Positions 1,251 through 64,000 of a stretch of 64,000 nucleotides of DNA are shown piece by piece. The stretch is taken from assembly GCA_932294295.1 (NCBI GenBank), contig OW028573.1:66441829-66505828 (forward strand), in the 5' to 3' direction. Numbering within the stretch: position 1 is the first letter of the stretch; each line of letters begins with the position of its first letter. Made by a program: the position numbers and the translations under genes. The DNA comes from Alitta virens (lineage: Eukaryota; Annelida; Polychaeta; Phyllodocida; Nereididae). The notes beneath the pieces were generated by a model. The model was not told the origin of the DNA. It did not search any database and saw only the letters and a list, made by a program, of their open reading frames with translations.

Positions 1251-2066
1251 ATGGGCCAATACGAACGCTTGATGAATGAATTATTGATGGAGGATGCAAC
1301 CCACTACAACAACTTTGTGAGAATGGAGCCAGCCATGTTCCAAGAGCTGCTTGCCAAAGTTGGGCCCAGAATTACCAAGCAAGACACCTTCTGGAGGAAA
1401 GCTTTGGAGCCAGGACTCAGGATTGCCATCACCCTGAGGTATTTGGCAACTGGCAACAGCTACAAGTCATTGATGTATGACTTAAGAGTGGCCCACAATA
1501 TCATTACTGAAGTGTGTGAAGCCATCCTAGCCGAGTATGCAGAAGATGTCATCTCCTGTCCAACTACACCAGAAGAGTGGAGAGAAGTTGCACAGCTGTT
1601 TGAGGCAAGATGGAACTTTCCCCATTGTATTGGTACCATAGATGGGAAGCATGTGGCCATCAGGTGTCCTCCCAAAGGAGGTTCACTCTACTATAACTAC
1701 AAGGGCTTCCATTCCATTGTACTCATGGCTCTTGTGGATGCAAACTACAAGTTCATCTATGTGGATTGTGGAGCAAATGATTCTGGATTTGATGGAGGAG
1801 TTTTTGCTGCAACAGCCCTGAGGGAAGCTCTAGAATATGAGACCATTGGATTACCTCCACCTGAACCTATTGCTGGTGGTGACAGACCTGTACCATACTT
1901 CATCGTTAGGGATGATGCCTTCCCTTGAGAACCTGGCTGATGAAACCACTGCCTCTGCAATTACACTCCAGAGCCAGAAGAATTGTGGAGAATGCCTTTG
2001 GTATCCTGGCATCAAGGTTTAGGTTTCTGCTAGCCATTATGCCCCAGAATGGTAAACACAAAATTG
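1251..2066 (+). pseudogene. PIF/Harbinger transposase, frameshifted and truncated (element 1)
   Basis: The ORF 1251-1928 (225 aa) encodes a HARBI1/DDE_Tnp_4 type transposase. Visible landmarks are CIGTIDGKHVAIRCP with the first catalytic Asp, and YVDCGANDSGFDGGVF with the second. The third, in IVENAFGILASRF, lies in another frame at about 1977-2030 because the reading frame shifts near 1925 and roughly 30 bases are missing relative to the second copy at 63056-63988. The protein would end soon after 2065, losing the C-terminal part seen in that copy. The start ATG at 1251 is supported by a shared N-terminal region (LATGNSYKSLMYD). It pairs with the convergent Myb/SANT-like gene at 2931-4567. 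PIF/Harbinger elements normally carry these two genes, and the accessory protein helps the transposase bind DNA. This copy cannot make an active enzyme. Confidence 0.9.
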
Positions 2067-2412: not shown

Positions 2413-2449
2413 GCTCTTTTGGGAGGATTTGGTGGCCTTGAAAAAGGCC
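2413..2449 (-). promoter_or_regulatory. Histone-type 3' end signal (stem-loop plus HDE) in Harbinger element 1
   Basis: Read on the minus strand, 2449-2434 is GGCCTTTTTCAAGGCC: a 6-bp stem with a UUUC loop that fits the metazoan histone mRNA consensus GGYYYUUHUNARRRCC at every position. It is followed at once by ACCA (2433-2430), the usual cleavage context. About 12 bases further on comes CCCAAAAGAGC (2423-2413), resembling the purine-rich histone downstream element that pairs with U7 snRNA. It lies downstream of the stop codon (2931) of the minus-strand Myb-like ORF, about 70 nt away once the later SINE insertion (2513-2912) is subtracted. The same arrangement recurs at 62997-63035. Confidence 0.75.
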
Positions 2450-2930: not shown

Positions 2931-4567
2931 TTACTTCTTCGGAGACATCTGAGTCATACGGAAGAACGAGTTCATCAGCTGGCTCATGTGGAGCGGAGTC
3001 AAACTGGCAGGAACGTTGTCACTGGCAGACGGCAAGGAACCCACTGAAGGAGGGTTCAAGGAAGAAGAACCAGGTACCACTGGAGAAGGTACAGCAGGGA
3101 AGACACCCAATGAAGGTCCAGGTCCAGAAGACTGGTAGGTACCTGCAAGCTGGAACCTGGCAACTGAAGAAGCTCCTGCAGGCTGTAAAGAAGCTGAAGA
3201 AGACGGCTGTGCAGACATCATCTGCAAGGTAGTCCATTGTTTCTCAGGAGTTATAGTGTGCTGGAACTGGCTGAACAATGGCTGAAACATCTGGGCCTGC
3301 TGCTGCTGATGGAGCTGCTGCTGCTCAATAATCAACTGCTGCTGTTGCTGCTTGTTCCTCTTGACTGGCGCCTTCATCTGCAGGAAGAATGACATCAGCT
3401 GGGCTTCGACGTCGTTATACGTGTCCAAGTCCAACGGAAGACACTCAGAATATATGTAGTCAGTCATTGAGCGGATTCTCAGGGTTTTTCGGATCTGCAG
3501 GAGGAGGAGGCTGTGCGATGGCTTTGATGTGCTGATCAATCCTTGCAACTGTCACCTAATTTAGAGCTTGTTGCAGAAGAATGATCACCAGTATTCTTCC
3601 TCTTCTTGAAGGGACCACCCTTGGTTCTCGCTGGGAAGATTGGACTTGGCTCGACGTCAACTTCTTCCAGTTCTTCAAGCCCAGAATCTTGCTGCCCTGC
3701 ACTGGAGCTGTCATCAAAGTTGGGCAGTTGTTTGTTGCTCTTCCCAATCTTCTTCTTTAGGTTGGAAGCTTGACGAGACGGCACCCTGGAGATGTGTTGC
3801 TCAAGGAACCCAAAGTTGGCGATAATCCACTTCTCTGTCTCTGTTGGATTTCTCTTGGCTGTACCGGAAGGGCCCCGCTTGATGAGCTTTCCAGCACTGG
3901 TTCTGATAGACTCAAGCCAGGTCTTCAACTGTAGCCCAGTACAGGGGACACTGAGGGTCTGTACCTTGTCCTTGATGAACCTCATCTTCCTCTGATGATC
4001 CTTGTAGTCATGTCTGGTCCTGTCATAGAATATGTCATTCTCCCGGTACCAGTCAGCAATGTCTTGCTCATTATTGGGGGTAGAAAAAGCTTCTCAGTCT
4101 TCATCTTGGCTTCTTCTGAGATGCAGCAGGAGCAGTGGCGGAGGAGACCTGGGTGGCAGGAAATTCATTTGCATCACTATCATCATCTTCTTCTTGGGTG
4201 TCTTTCTTCTCCTTCTCTACATCAAAGTTTGGATCTCTGTCGCTGTCAACCATGTCAACATCAGAAGACTTGGCAGAAGACTTGTCTTCTTGGCAGTGGA
4301 CTTGAGAGAAGACTGTTCAGAAGACTTGGCAGAAGACTTGGCAGGACACTTGGCAGAAGACCTGACAGGAGACTTGGCAGGAGACTTGGTAGGAACCTTG
4401 GTGGGAGATTTGGTAGGAGCGTAATAAGAACAACTGGCAGGACTAGAAGGAGCTGCAGGAACACTGGATTCTTCAGACTCAAATATTTCTTCCCCAGAGG
4501 CAAGTGAAGAAGGCTCTTCTGCTGTGATTTTTTTCTTTCCAAGATTGCGTCTTTTCTTGGGTCCCAT
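2931..4567 (-). pseudogene. Harbinger Myb/SANT-like accessory protein, frameshifted (element 1)
   Basis: The ATG at 4567 in an ACCATGG context opens a protein in three frame segments: about 4567-4217, 3985-3536 and 3548-2931. The N-terminus is Lys/Ser/Pro-rich with SPTK and SPAKSP repeats. The middle (PCTGLQLKTWLESIRT, then PSGTAKRNPTETEKWIIANF) matches the trihelix Myb/SANT-like domain of the intact second copy at 61686-62575. The C-terminal part is rich in Gln (3290-3355) and Ser/Pro. At least two frameshifts break it. A TATA box on the minus strand (TATATAA, 4697-4691) lies about 125 bases upstream of the ATG. In PIF/Harbinger elements this second protein binds DNA and helps import and target the transposase. 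The run of a histone-type 3' signal behind it is unusual. Confidence 0.8.
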
Positions 4568-60973: not shown

Positions 60974-61102
60974 CAGGGGCATAGCTAAGAGGTAGCACTC
61001 TGGGCTTCCAACCGCTGGGTCCCGGGTTCGATTCCCGGTTGAGCCTAAGTTGGATGGCTGTTTCATCCTTCGTCTCATTGCCATGATCCCTGCCTATCCT
61101 AA
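60974..61102 (+). mobile_element. tRNA-SINE cut by Harbinger element 2
   Basis: Head and first part of the body are present up to CCTGCCTATCCTAA. The rest is replaced by the Harbinger terminus at 61103, so Harbinger jumped into this SINE. Confidence 0.85.
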
Positions 61103-61114
61103 AGCCCCGTTCCC

Positions 61115-61445
61115 ACATAGCCGAGTTACTCGTAGTCAACTCGTAGTATTACGTAACACGCCTCTCGGGCCCAACTCTTACTAAACTCTGCGATTACTCC
61201 TCGCACTCGAGAGATGTTCGGCGAGAAACTCCTGAGTCTCGTAGCGAACTCGTGAGATTTGGAGCCGAGTTTGCCGAGTCTCCCGAGTATGCCGTGCTGC
61301 ACGGCACTCGCCGCTGATTTCACTCGTATTACACTCGACTGGATGTTCAGGAGTGCGAGGAGTAATTCGCCGAATTGTAGGAGTAATTCGCCGAGTTGTA
61401 GGAGTAATTCGCCGAGTTGTAGGAGTAATTCGCCGAGTTGTAGGA
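61115..61445. repeat. Harbinger 2 subterminal repeats
   Basis: Repeated ACTCGTAG/CTCGTAG words (61127-61350), followed by four tandem 21-bp units GGAGTAATTCGCCGAGTTGTA at 61359-61442 (first unit one mismatch). Element 1 has related ACGAGT words in the equivalent region. Candidate transposase binding sites. Confidence 0.8.
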
Positions 61446-61685: not shown

Positions 61686-62575
61686 ATGCCGATGAAAAAG
61701 ACCAGGTTCGCCAAAAGGCCTGCAGTGGACACAGAACTATCTGCTGGATCTTCTGATGACTCTGAAAACCCGACAAAGACATCGCAGAAGACTGCTCTTC
61801 CTGTGAAGAAAATGAAGAAGTCTGCTCCAAGATCTCCTGTCAAGAGGACTACTGCTGCTGCAAGATCTCCTGCCAAGAGGACTGCTGCTGCAAGATCTCC
61901 TGGCAAGAAGACTGCTGCTGCTGCAAGATCTCCTGCCAAGAGGACTACTGCTGCTGCAAGATCTCCTGCCAAGAGGACTGCTGCTGCAAGATCTCCTGCC
62001 AAGAGGACTGCCAAGACGCGTCTGCCAGTGCCAACAAGAACGTCATCAGATGCTGGCAGTAGTAATGATGAGCCCCAGGTTGCTACTCCTGCGTCTGCTG
62101 CAGCACCTGCTACTTCTTCGCCTGCACCTGCTCCTTCGCCTGCTCCTTTGCCTGCTCCTTTGCCTGCTCCTTCGCCTGTTCCTTCGCCTGCTCCTTCGCC
62201 TGCTTCTTCGCCTGTTCCTTCGCCTGCTCCCTCGCCTGCACCTGCTACGTCCGAAGTGCCTGCTACACTTTCCTATGTTGCCAGGAAAAAACAGGAAAAG
62301 TTGTTCCTGCCAGCCACTGATGAGCAGGATATCGCTGACTGGTTTAGAGACCATCCCATTTTTTATGACCGGACCTTGAAATCCTACAAGGATTCAGGCA
62401 AGAAAATGGCCCTCATCAATGAGATGGCAAGGAAACTGAGTGTCCCCTGCACTGGATACCAATTGAAGACCTGGATGGAATCCACGCGGACTGTCGCAGG
62501 GAAACTAGTGCGGCAGGGACCATCTGGAACTGCGAAGAGGAACCCCACAGAGAAGGAGTTGTGGATTATATCGAA
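61686..62575 (+). pseudogene. Harbinger Myb/SANT-like accessory protein with SPxK repeats (element 2)
   Basis: The ATG at 61686 opens about 297 codons of real protein before the hairpin repeat cuts in at about 62579. Residues 48-112 hold six repeats of RSPxK[R/K]T separated by alanines, like the DNA-minor-groove-binding SPKK motifs of histone H1 and sperm histones. Residues 140-195 are Pro/Ala/Ser repeats. From about residue 205 the trihelix Myb/SANT-like domain starts: EKLFLPATDEQDIADWFRDH, then PCTGYQLKTWMESTRT, then PSGTAKRNPTEKELWIISNF. Element 1 continues beyond this with a Gln- and Ser-rich C-terminus that is lost here. The protein likely binds the transposon ends and works with the transposase (known role in PIF/Harbinger). 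The frame is otherwise undamaged. Confidence 0.85.
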
Positions 62576-62578
62576 TTT

Positions 62579-62935
62579 TGCCGTAGTTTTTTCTTGTTCA
62601 GAAGTGCCGTACTTTTTTTTTGTTCAGAAGTGCCGTAGTTGTGTCTTGTTCAGAAGTGCCGTATTATTTTTTTTGCTTCAGAACTGCCGTAGTTTTTTCT
62701 ATTATACTGCAATGAAAATAATGAAAGTACGGCACTTCTGAACAAGAAACAACTACGGCAGTTCTGAAGCAAAAAAAATAATACGGCACTTCTGAACAAG
62801 AAACAACTATGGCAGTTCTGAAGCAAAAAAAAATAATACGGCACTTCTGAACAAGACACAACTACGGCACTTCTGAACAAAAAAAAAGTACGGCACTTCT
62901 GAACAACCAACAACTACGGCACTTCTGAACCAATA
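62579..62935. repeat. Tandem, inverted TACGGCACTTCTGAAC hairpin repeat
   Basis: The left arm (62579-62695) has four TTCAGAAGTGCCGTA-type units. The right arm (62726-62935) has about seven to nine inverse units (TACGGCACTTCTGAACAA), with some variants reading GGCAGTTCTGAAG. The arms form a near-perfect fold-back of about 100 bp around a ~30-base A/T centre. It interrupts the Myb-like gene. Confidence 0.92.
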
Positions 62936-62996
62936 AAATATTTTGTGTGGGTCAGACAGGAACTTTTTTTTTTATTACACAAGAAGTGTACATGGT

Positions 62997-63035
62997 CTGC
63001 TCTTTTGGGAGGATTTGGTGGCCTTGAAAAAGGCC
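62997..63035 (-). promoter_or_regulatory. Histone-type 3' end signal behind Harbinger 2 transposase
   Basis: Minus strand 63035-63020 is GGCCTTTTTCAAGGCC. It is followed by ACCA (63019-63016) and then CCCAAAAGAGCAG (63009-62997). The transposase stop codon (63058-63056) is only 20 bases before the stem, the spacing usual in histone genes. Identical stem-loop and downstream sequence are at 2413-2449 in element 1. Confidence 0.8.
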
Positions 63036-63055
63036 GGGGTTGTTTTGTGGAATCT

Positions 63056-64000
63056 TTATACCATGTCATCTTGCCATGGCACTCTTCCTTCGTCTGAATT
63101 GACAAAGTCCACCAAGTACTGCCGTTGATTCTTGGCTGCTTCAGTCATAGAATGCCCTCTATTTGTTGGTGGCATTTCATCGATTTCTCCAGCTGCCCTC
63201 CAAGTTCCTGGGATGATACGATGTGTGATTGGATCTTCATGGTCCAGCATGATGTTCTGAGCAGTCGGATAAGTTATTCTCATCAGATTGTGGAGGCAGC
63301 AACATGCAATGACTATGGATTCCACTGTCTTAGTTCTGTGTGGCATGGTAGTCAGGAGACACCTGAACCTTGCTGCAAGGATCCCAAATGCGTTTTCCAC
63401 AATTCTTCTCGCCCGGGAGAGGCGGTAATTGTATATCCTCTGCTCTTTGGTCATGTTTCTGAGAGGCAGTGGCTTCATCAGCCAGGTTCTCAAGGGGAAG
63501 GCATCATCTCCGACAATGAAGTAGGGAAGAGGTCTGTGACCAGGAAGAATTGGTTCAGGTGGAGGTAATCCAATGGTCCCTTCTTCAAGTCCTTCTCTCA
63601 GGAGTGTATCATTAAAAACTCCTCCATCAGATCCAGCGCCGTTTGCTCCACAGTCTACATAGAGGAACTTGTAATCAGCATCCACAAGAGCCATGAGTAC
63701 GATGGAATGGAAGCCCTTGTAATTGAAATACACTGAACCATCTTTTGGAGGACATTTGATGGCCACATGCTTCCCATCAATGGCTCCAATACAGTGAGGA
63801 AAGTTCCACCTTGAATAGAACAGTTTCGCAACTTCTCTCCACTCTTCTGGAGTTGTGGGGCATGCCAGGACATCTTCATTATACTCCGCAATGATGGCTT
63901 CACAGACTTCTCGAATTATGTTGCTGATGGTATTGTAAGCCACTCTGAAGCCATACATGAGGGACCTGTAGCTGTTTCCAGTTGCCAAATAGCGGAGGGT
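63056..64000 (-). CDS. PIF/Harbinger transposase (HARBI1/DDE_Tnp_4 type), 5' end outside window
   Basis: The frame is open from the window end to TAA at 63056, over 310 codons, without a break. Motifs in order: LATGNSYRSLMYGFRVAYNT in the N-terminal helical part, CIGAIDGKHVAIKCPP with the first catalytic Asp, YVDCGANGAGSDGGVF with the second, and RRIVENAFGILAARFR with the Glu. These make the DDE triad of the family. After them comes CCCLHNLMR, the C-terminal motif typical of HARBI1. The protein cuts the transposon ends and pastes them at TWA targets. The undamaged frame contrasts with element 1. The N-terminus and start codon lie beyond 64000. Gene order is convergent with the Myb-like gene. 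Confidence 0.93.
   Translation of the reverse strand, partial: TLRYLATGNSYRSLMYGFRVAYNTISNIIREVCEAIIAEYNEDVLACPTTPEEWREVAKLFYSRWNFPHCIGAIDGKHVAIKCPPKDGSVYFNYKGFHSIVLMALVDADYKFLYVDCGANGAGSDGGVFNDTLLREGLEEGTIGLPPPEPILPGHRPLPYFIVGDDAFPLRTWLMKPLPLRNMTKEQRIYNYRLSRARRIVENAFGILAARFRCLLTTMPHRTKTVESIVIACCCLHNLMRITYPTAQNIMLDHEDPITHRIIPGTWRAAGEIDEMPPTNRGHSMTEAAKNQRQYLVDFVNSDEGRVPWQDDMV

Follow-up and report, generated by a model that had tools for sequence, protein, structure and literature searches.

Results

The two genes of a PIF/Harbinger transposon of the annelid Alitta virens quite probably end in the host's replication-dependent histone 3'-processing cassette, with mRNAs that are processed as histone mRNAs are. 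Behind both genes lie the parts of this cassette in their usual order, the arrangement recurs across the genome and is nearly identical to the ends of the host histone genes, and the genome has an SLBP gene. A stem-loop bound by SLBP, a cleavage site and a U7-binding element together mark replication-dependent histone mRNAs, which end without poly(A). As far as is known, this signal is otherwise nearly exclusive to replication-dependent histone genes.

A histone-type 3' end behind a Harbinger transposase

The 64,000-nucleotide stretch analysed (the window) carries a stem-loop, GGCCTTTTTCAAGGCC, that fits the consensus GGYYYTTHTNARRRCC exactly, the consensus being taken as stated in a preliminary description of this DNA (Table 1). 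As that description reported, ACCA follows immediately and the stem-loop lies 20 nt behind the transposase stop codon (63056-63058, minus strand). The downstream element that it named, CCCAAAAGAGC, is indeed present, but not at the 12 bases given: it starts 10 nt past the stem and 6 nt past ACCA. The purine-rich AAAAGAGC starts 13 nt past the stem, and in host histone genes AAAGAGAGC does so after 12. According to the accessible part of PMC7026596, efficient processing requires the AAAGAG core of the downstream element, and this core base-pairs with CUCUUU in U7. By eye, a hairpin similar in shape to the one found 3' of the window element is also seen 3' of the host histone downstream elements.

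Table 1. Positions of the cassette and of the surrounding transposon features (window coordinates unless a fetched region is named)
Feature	Position	Strand	Remarks
Histone-type stem-loop GGCCTTTTTCAAGGCC	63020..63035	-	6-bp stem, 4-nt loop
ACCA	63016..63019	-	expected cleavage region, by analogy with histone genes
AAAAGAGC	62999..63006	-	purine-rich, putative U7-type downstream element; AAAGAG core as in the accessible part of PMC7026596
38-nt block, stem-loop through downstream element	62998..63035	-	reads GGCCTTTTTCAAGGCC ACCA AATCCTCCC AAAAGAGC A
Small hairpin TACACTTCTTGTGTA 3' of downstream element	62976..62990	-	fold computed for window copy
AATAAA, possible poly(A) signal	62971..62976	-	starts 44 nt past stem
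PIF/Harbinger DDE transposase (DDE_Tnp_4)	63056..64000	-	extends beyond window; whole 441 aa at C1:66504887-66506209, stop-free
Accessory MADF/Myb-like gene, N-terminal part only	61686..62578	+	3' part and own stem-loop missing relative to intact copies
Foldback repeats	62579..62938	+	counted as part of element
Target site duplication TAA, left	61100..61102	+	TAA also after right end, beyond window
Left terminal inverted repeat AGCCCCGTTCCCACATAGCCGAGTTACTCGTAG...	61103..61140	+	
Stem-loop identical to first	2434..2449	-	accessory-gene strand of second copy
ACCAAATCCTCCCAAAAGAGCA 3' of second stem-loop	2412..2433	-	same 22 bases as behind first stem-loop
Truncated transposase, second copy	1251..2046	+	
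Broken accessory gene, second copy	2931..4565	-	read in pieces
Tandem stem-loop arrays	L014, L017, L019, L020, L022; L001, L010, L018		first five on accessory-gene side
Cassette behind Mutator-like transposase	L006:1505-1520; L067:341-356	-; +	

The consensus GGYYYTTHTNARRRCC occurs twice in the window, against 0.04 matches expected, and none of 100 shuffled windows contained two; together with the reversed controls run genome-wide (see below), these shuffles rule out a chance match. An Rfam scan of the whole window returned nothing at the gathering score. Against RF00032, whose gathering score is 34, the window stem-loop gave 30.7 bits, the second window site 26.5 and the element cassettes scanned 27.3-30.7. 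Since the host core histone genes likewise fall short (24.5-27.0 bits), this cut-off has no discriminating power in the present genome.

The transposase of the window copy matches PF13359 (DDE_Tnp_4) with 107.5 bits (104.3 for family A, 106.3 for family C; see below for the families). The foldback repeats at 62579-62938 were considered as a later insertion, a reading that was rejected because the spacer between the two genes is filled with similar repeats in other copies; they are therefore assigned to the element. The second stem-loop, absent from the preliminary description, lies inside a second, degraded Harbinger copy, where the transposase is on the opposite strand, so that the signal must end the accessory gene. 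The two window copies thus carry the signal behind different genes, which predicts one signal for each of two convergent genes, with one of the two lost in each window copy. Between the stop of the second-copy accessory gene and its stem-loop there is a tRNA-like SINE (2512-2911), and similar repeats occur elsewhere in the window.

The host histone genes and their processing machinery

The genome searched was the window's own assembly (671 Mb, 23 contigs; contigs are hereafter given C-numbers and fetched regions L-numbers). It contains 54 Pfam histone matches and a core histone cluster on C12. In the one repeat unit fetched, the histone-type signal is present in all four core histone genes: the stops of H2A, H2B, H3 and H4 lie 28-38 nt ahead of GGCCTTTTTCAAGGCCACCAAATCCTCCAAAGAGAGCAGACC, with the variant letters ACCATATCC in H3 and GGCCTTTTTAAAGGCC in H4. 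The host H2B shares 97% identity with the Urechis caupo protein, and a 5S rRNA gene is found within the repeat unit (L054:3262-3380).

Host and element cassettes were located by an exact 20-mer, so that 20 of the 38 letters of the block are identical by construction and only the other 18 count as agreement. With this restriction, the cassettes of host H2A, H2B and H3 agree with those of element families A and C at 15-17 of the 18 free letters (0.92-0.97 over the 38 nt).

The SLBP domain (PF15247) was found on C8 in two pieces or exons scoring 43.2 and 33.9 bits (cut-off 27). U7 snRNA was not located: a search with a 20-mer gave 77 matches, against 68 for the reversed pattern, and none of the seven candidates fetched was convincing.

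Each of two convergent genes has its own cassette

The 20-mer GGCCTTTTTCAAGGCCACCA has 855 exact copies in the genome and its reversed pattern none; likewise, the 38-nt block has 940 copies with at most three mismatches, and the reversed control none. These numbers rule out a single local histone pseudogene fragment, a reading that the preliminary description had named as fatal to its proposal. Among the 100 places listed, many form convergent stem-loop pairs, the two members being separated by anything from a few hundred bases to roughly 1,200. Nineteen regions were fetched because they contain such a pair, in addition to one region that continues the window copy. In all 19, matches to the transposase and to a MADF/Myb-like accessory protein each run into a stem-loop on their own strand. 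In L027, where both frames are intact (441 and 561 aa), the stems lie 20 and 25 nt past the stops. The cassette of the transposase gene had been described beforehand; that of the accessory gene had not, nor had its occurrence in a second transposon superfamily (see below).

Distances from stop to stem were measured for frames of at least 300 aa, L013 and L015 being taken as transposases by their pair-region matches. The first exact stem begins 20-23 nt past the transposase stop in 15 of 16 cases and 55 nt past it in family C. Fifteen accessory frames reach a stem-loop; it lies 15-25 nt past the stop in 14 of them and 78 nt past it in L026. Three other accessory frames (L013, L016 and L032, 302-369 aa) are cut short by an early stop, and no stem-loop follows in the next 200 nt. 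Several families have tandem arrays of two to five stem-loops spaced 26-31 nt apart (regions in Table 1), and there the U7-type element follows only the final one. In L057, L065 and L066, transposase and accessory protein have their C-termini on one strand, ahead of a single stem-loop; these are probably rearranged derivatives.

The element has a DDE_Tnp_4 transposase, a Myb/SANT-like (MADF) second gene, terminal inverted repeats and a 3-bp TWA target duplication, and in all four it is like PIF/Harbinger (PHIS superfamily), for which the accessible part of PMC4482050 gives that duplication. In families A, B and C, the accessory gene matches PF10545 (MADF) above its cut-off. The target duplication (TAA or TTA) is identical in 11 of the 16 copies for which both ends were found, and no identical duplication was seen in the other five (L010, L011, L017, L023 and L027). 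At least 24 full-length transposase matches are identical to the query at a rounded 100% (95 of 2,551 candidates scored). The element is abundant and, to judge from its copies, recently active. Named relatives of the transposase include Diadema sea urchin proteins (60-72%); none was confirmed in viral and prokaryotic collections. What sets the element apart from known PIF/Harbinger transposons is the histone-type cassette at both genes.

The cassette shares with replication-dependent histone 3' ends (RF00032) the stem-loop, ACCA, the spacer, the purine element with its AAAGAG core and a short 3' UTR. It differs from them in standing on transposon genes, in its tandem stem-loops in several families and in an AATAAA farther 3' of the transposase. 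Since this hexamer starts 44 nt past the window stem, the transposase mRNA could still be polyadenylated; one may then suppose that these are ordinary polyadenylated mRNAs in which the stem-loop serves stability, export or translation control, or that both types of end are used. An AATAAA 79-82 nt past the stop in 15 of the 16 stem-loop-bearing transposase genes fits such a scheme. However, neither AATAAA nor ATTAAA occurs within 200 nt of the stop in the family C transposase or in any of the 15 accessory frames with a stem-loop behind them, and AATAAA is absent from the 150 nt after each of the four stops in the host histone unit. In a polyadenylated mRNA, moreover, a U7-type element would be superfluous. 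I consider this explanation unlikely.

Both genes are preceded by TATA boxes in families A to C, and the accessory genes of A and B also by TCATTCA. A histone-type promoter was considered on this ground and dropped, the TCATTCA cap motif being present in none of the four host histone genes.

Retention and divergence of the cassette

To count stem-loops behind transposases independently of the stem-loop itself, a pattern for the transposase C-terminus was used that fits families A, B and D. It found 250 sites, 100 of them listed, and 54 ends were sampled: the 34 C1 sites of that listing and, of its 22 C2 sites, the first 20. The exact 16-nt stem-loop is kept in 48 of the 54. The loop has changed length in two (L031, L045), and the stem-loop is lost or disrupted in four (L029, L033, L041, L044); in L041 it is missing although the transposase frame is intact (C2:40319518-40320840). 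In the C1 sample the exact 20-mer stands behind 29 of 34 C-termini. Intact copies devoid of the stem-loop, which according to the preliminary description would speak against histone-type processing, are therefore the exception in this sample. Two of the 48 have ACAA in place of ACCA (L030, L032). The downstream element is more variable: of the 20 C2 copies, 14 have an unaltered AAAAGAGC, and on the transposase side of subfamily D the element is disrupted (CCCATTTTAAAGAACA).

Such counts might be obtained if the cassette were a passenger, captured once with a histone 3' end by an ancestral element and persisting, functionless, because the copies are young. The near-identical transposases described above favour this explanation, and among young copies so alike, identity within a family proves little. 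It is further favoured by the way in which families C and E were found, namely through the exact stem-loop, which selects intact cases.

Comparison between families is more informative. Family A is that of the window copy and family C that of L010; in each of them, transposase and accessory gene alike carry the cassette. All families but A, B and D were found via the exact stem-loop, so that the family C sample says nothing about C copies that have no cassette. Between A and C, the transposases are 0.61-0.62 identical in amino acids and 0.48 at 4-fold sites; for the accessory proteins the values are 0.33-0.37 and 0.25-0.31. The last 150 coding nucleotides are 0.60-0.65 identical, and the DNA 100-250 nt past the stem 0.58-0.66, where the same aligner gives 0.59 for random 150-mers. 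In contrast, the 38-nt blocks of the two genes agree at 37 and 36 of 38 positions, that is, at 17 and 16 of the 18 free letters. Between families A and C, silent sites in the accessory gene are thus close to saturation, and yet the cassette stands 15-55 nt past both stops with nearly all its free letters alike. As it also occurs in another superfamily, a functionless relic is distinctly unlikely.

Exchange between histone genes and element copies, by gene conversion or by repeated capture, might also keep the block uniform, in place of selection on each element. The two cassettes inside one family are indeed alike over the 38 nt (1.00 in A, 0.97 in C). However, the element blocks differ from those of the host at recurring places (CCCAAAAGAGC or CCCAAGAGAGC in elements, CCAAAGAGAGC in the host), and if capture had recurred at this one position behind each gene, that in turn would imply a use. 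This explanation, too, has a low probability. A set of 11 cassettes, drawn from five groups and from the second copy in the window, was also compared. Stem-loop, ACC and AAAT served to select them; the letters TCCTCCCA after the selected part are invariant as well, and the purine element varies somewhat.

Finally, tandem stem-loops in several families might suggest a sequence that works as DNA, for instance as a binding site for the transposase or accessory protein in the middle of the element, but this is highly improbable given that the orientation follows the gene that is ended in the 19 pair regions and that the same sequence is found at the host histone genes.

The cassette in Mutator-like and other repeats

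One stem-loop site without a convergent partner, L006, lies behind a frame of which a piece matches a Mutator-like transposase (PF20700, 81.3 bits). A neighbouring piece of L006 matches 13 places, five of which were examined. The copy in L067, 87% identical to that piece, has an open frame of 555 aa, with the stem-loop 30 nt past the presumed stop by hand count. In three further Mutator-like copies (44-65% identical), whose 3' ends are only presumed, no such motif was found in the 701-801 nt fetched. Two copies of a superfamily unrelated to PIF/Harbinger thus share the cassette. Their blocks are 0.87-0.92 identical to those of the host histone genes and 0.84-0.87 to the Harbinger blocks; there is a faint hint that the Mutator lineage may have captured the cassette separately.

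Among 12 further unpaired sites on C1, eight have transposase or accessory matches. Three of the 12 (L055, L062, L063) belong to a third repeat family, which has an open frame ending 20 nt ahead of a cassette with ACCATATCC, as in host H3. The frame of L062 has no Pfam match, and this family is left out of the transposon count.

Discussion

The preliminary description suggested that the transposase mRNA may be processed like a histone mRNA. The host-like 3' ends, their recurrence and their retention among copies support this suggestion, which I extend to the accessory gene. The element would consist of two convergent genes, each a single uninterrupted frame in intact copies and each ending in a stem-loop, ACCA, a spacer and a U7-type element. 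SLBP would bind the stem-loop, the downstream element would pair with the U7 snRNP, and the pre-mRNA would be cut behind ACCA, yielding transposase and accessory mRNAs that lack poly(A). From what is established about SLBP and histone mRNAs, expression in S phase is expected: the element mRNAs would be made and kept alongside those of the histones, during S phase and in germ-line or embryonic cells that divide rapidly. The copy number of a cut-and-paste element can rise when it moves from DNA already replicated to DNA not yet replicated, and S-phase timing would therefore pay.

The cassette suggests, then, a possible histone-like expression of the element, which would tie it to DNA replication. 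A broader proposal, which I put at about even chances, is that at least two unrelated cut-and-paste superfamilies have captured a histone 3' end, thereby gating transposase and accessory protein to S phase, coupling transposition to replication and raising copy number.

Little is known of how transposition is timed to replication in eukaryotic cut-and-paste elements. If the proposal is true, a defined RNA signal with known trans-acting factors could time transposition. If, in addition, the mRNAs have no poly(A), RNA-seq on poly(A)-selected material under-reports such elements. No Harbinger family of this kind was known to the author of the preliminary description, and searches of the open-access literature, as far as the texts were accessible, likewise gave no transposon with a histone-type 3' end. 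In the accessible part of PMC9179366 the strings 'polyadenyl' and 'stem-loop' both have zero occurrences, as do 'polyadenyl' and 'histone' in that of PMC4482050.

A weak lead concerns the accessory protein, which might be a CDK target. SPxK/R is the minimal CDK consensus. In family A the protein has seven [ST]Px[KR] sites, a number reached in none of 1000 shuffles; family C has five (reached in 6 of 1000) and family B two (355 of 1000). The SPxK/R repeats, at L027:2849-4531 and L010:2525-3880, are accordingly enriched in families A and C and not in B.
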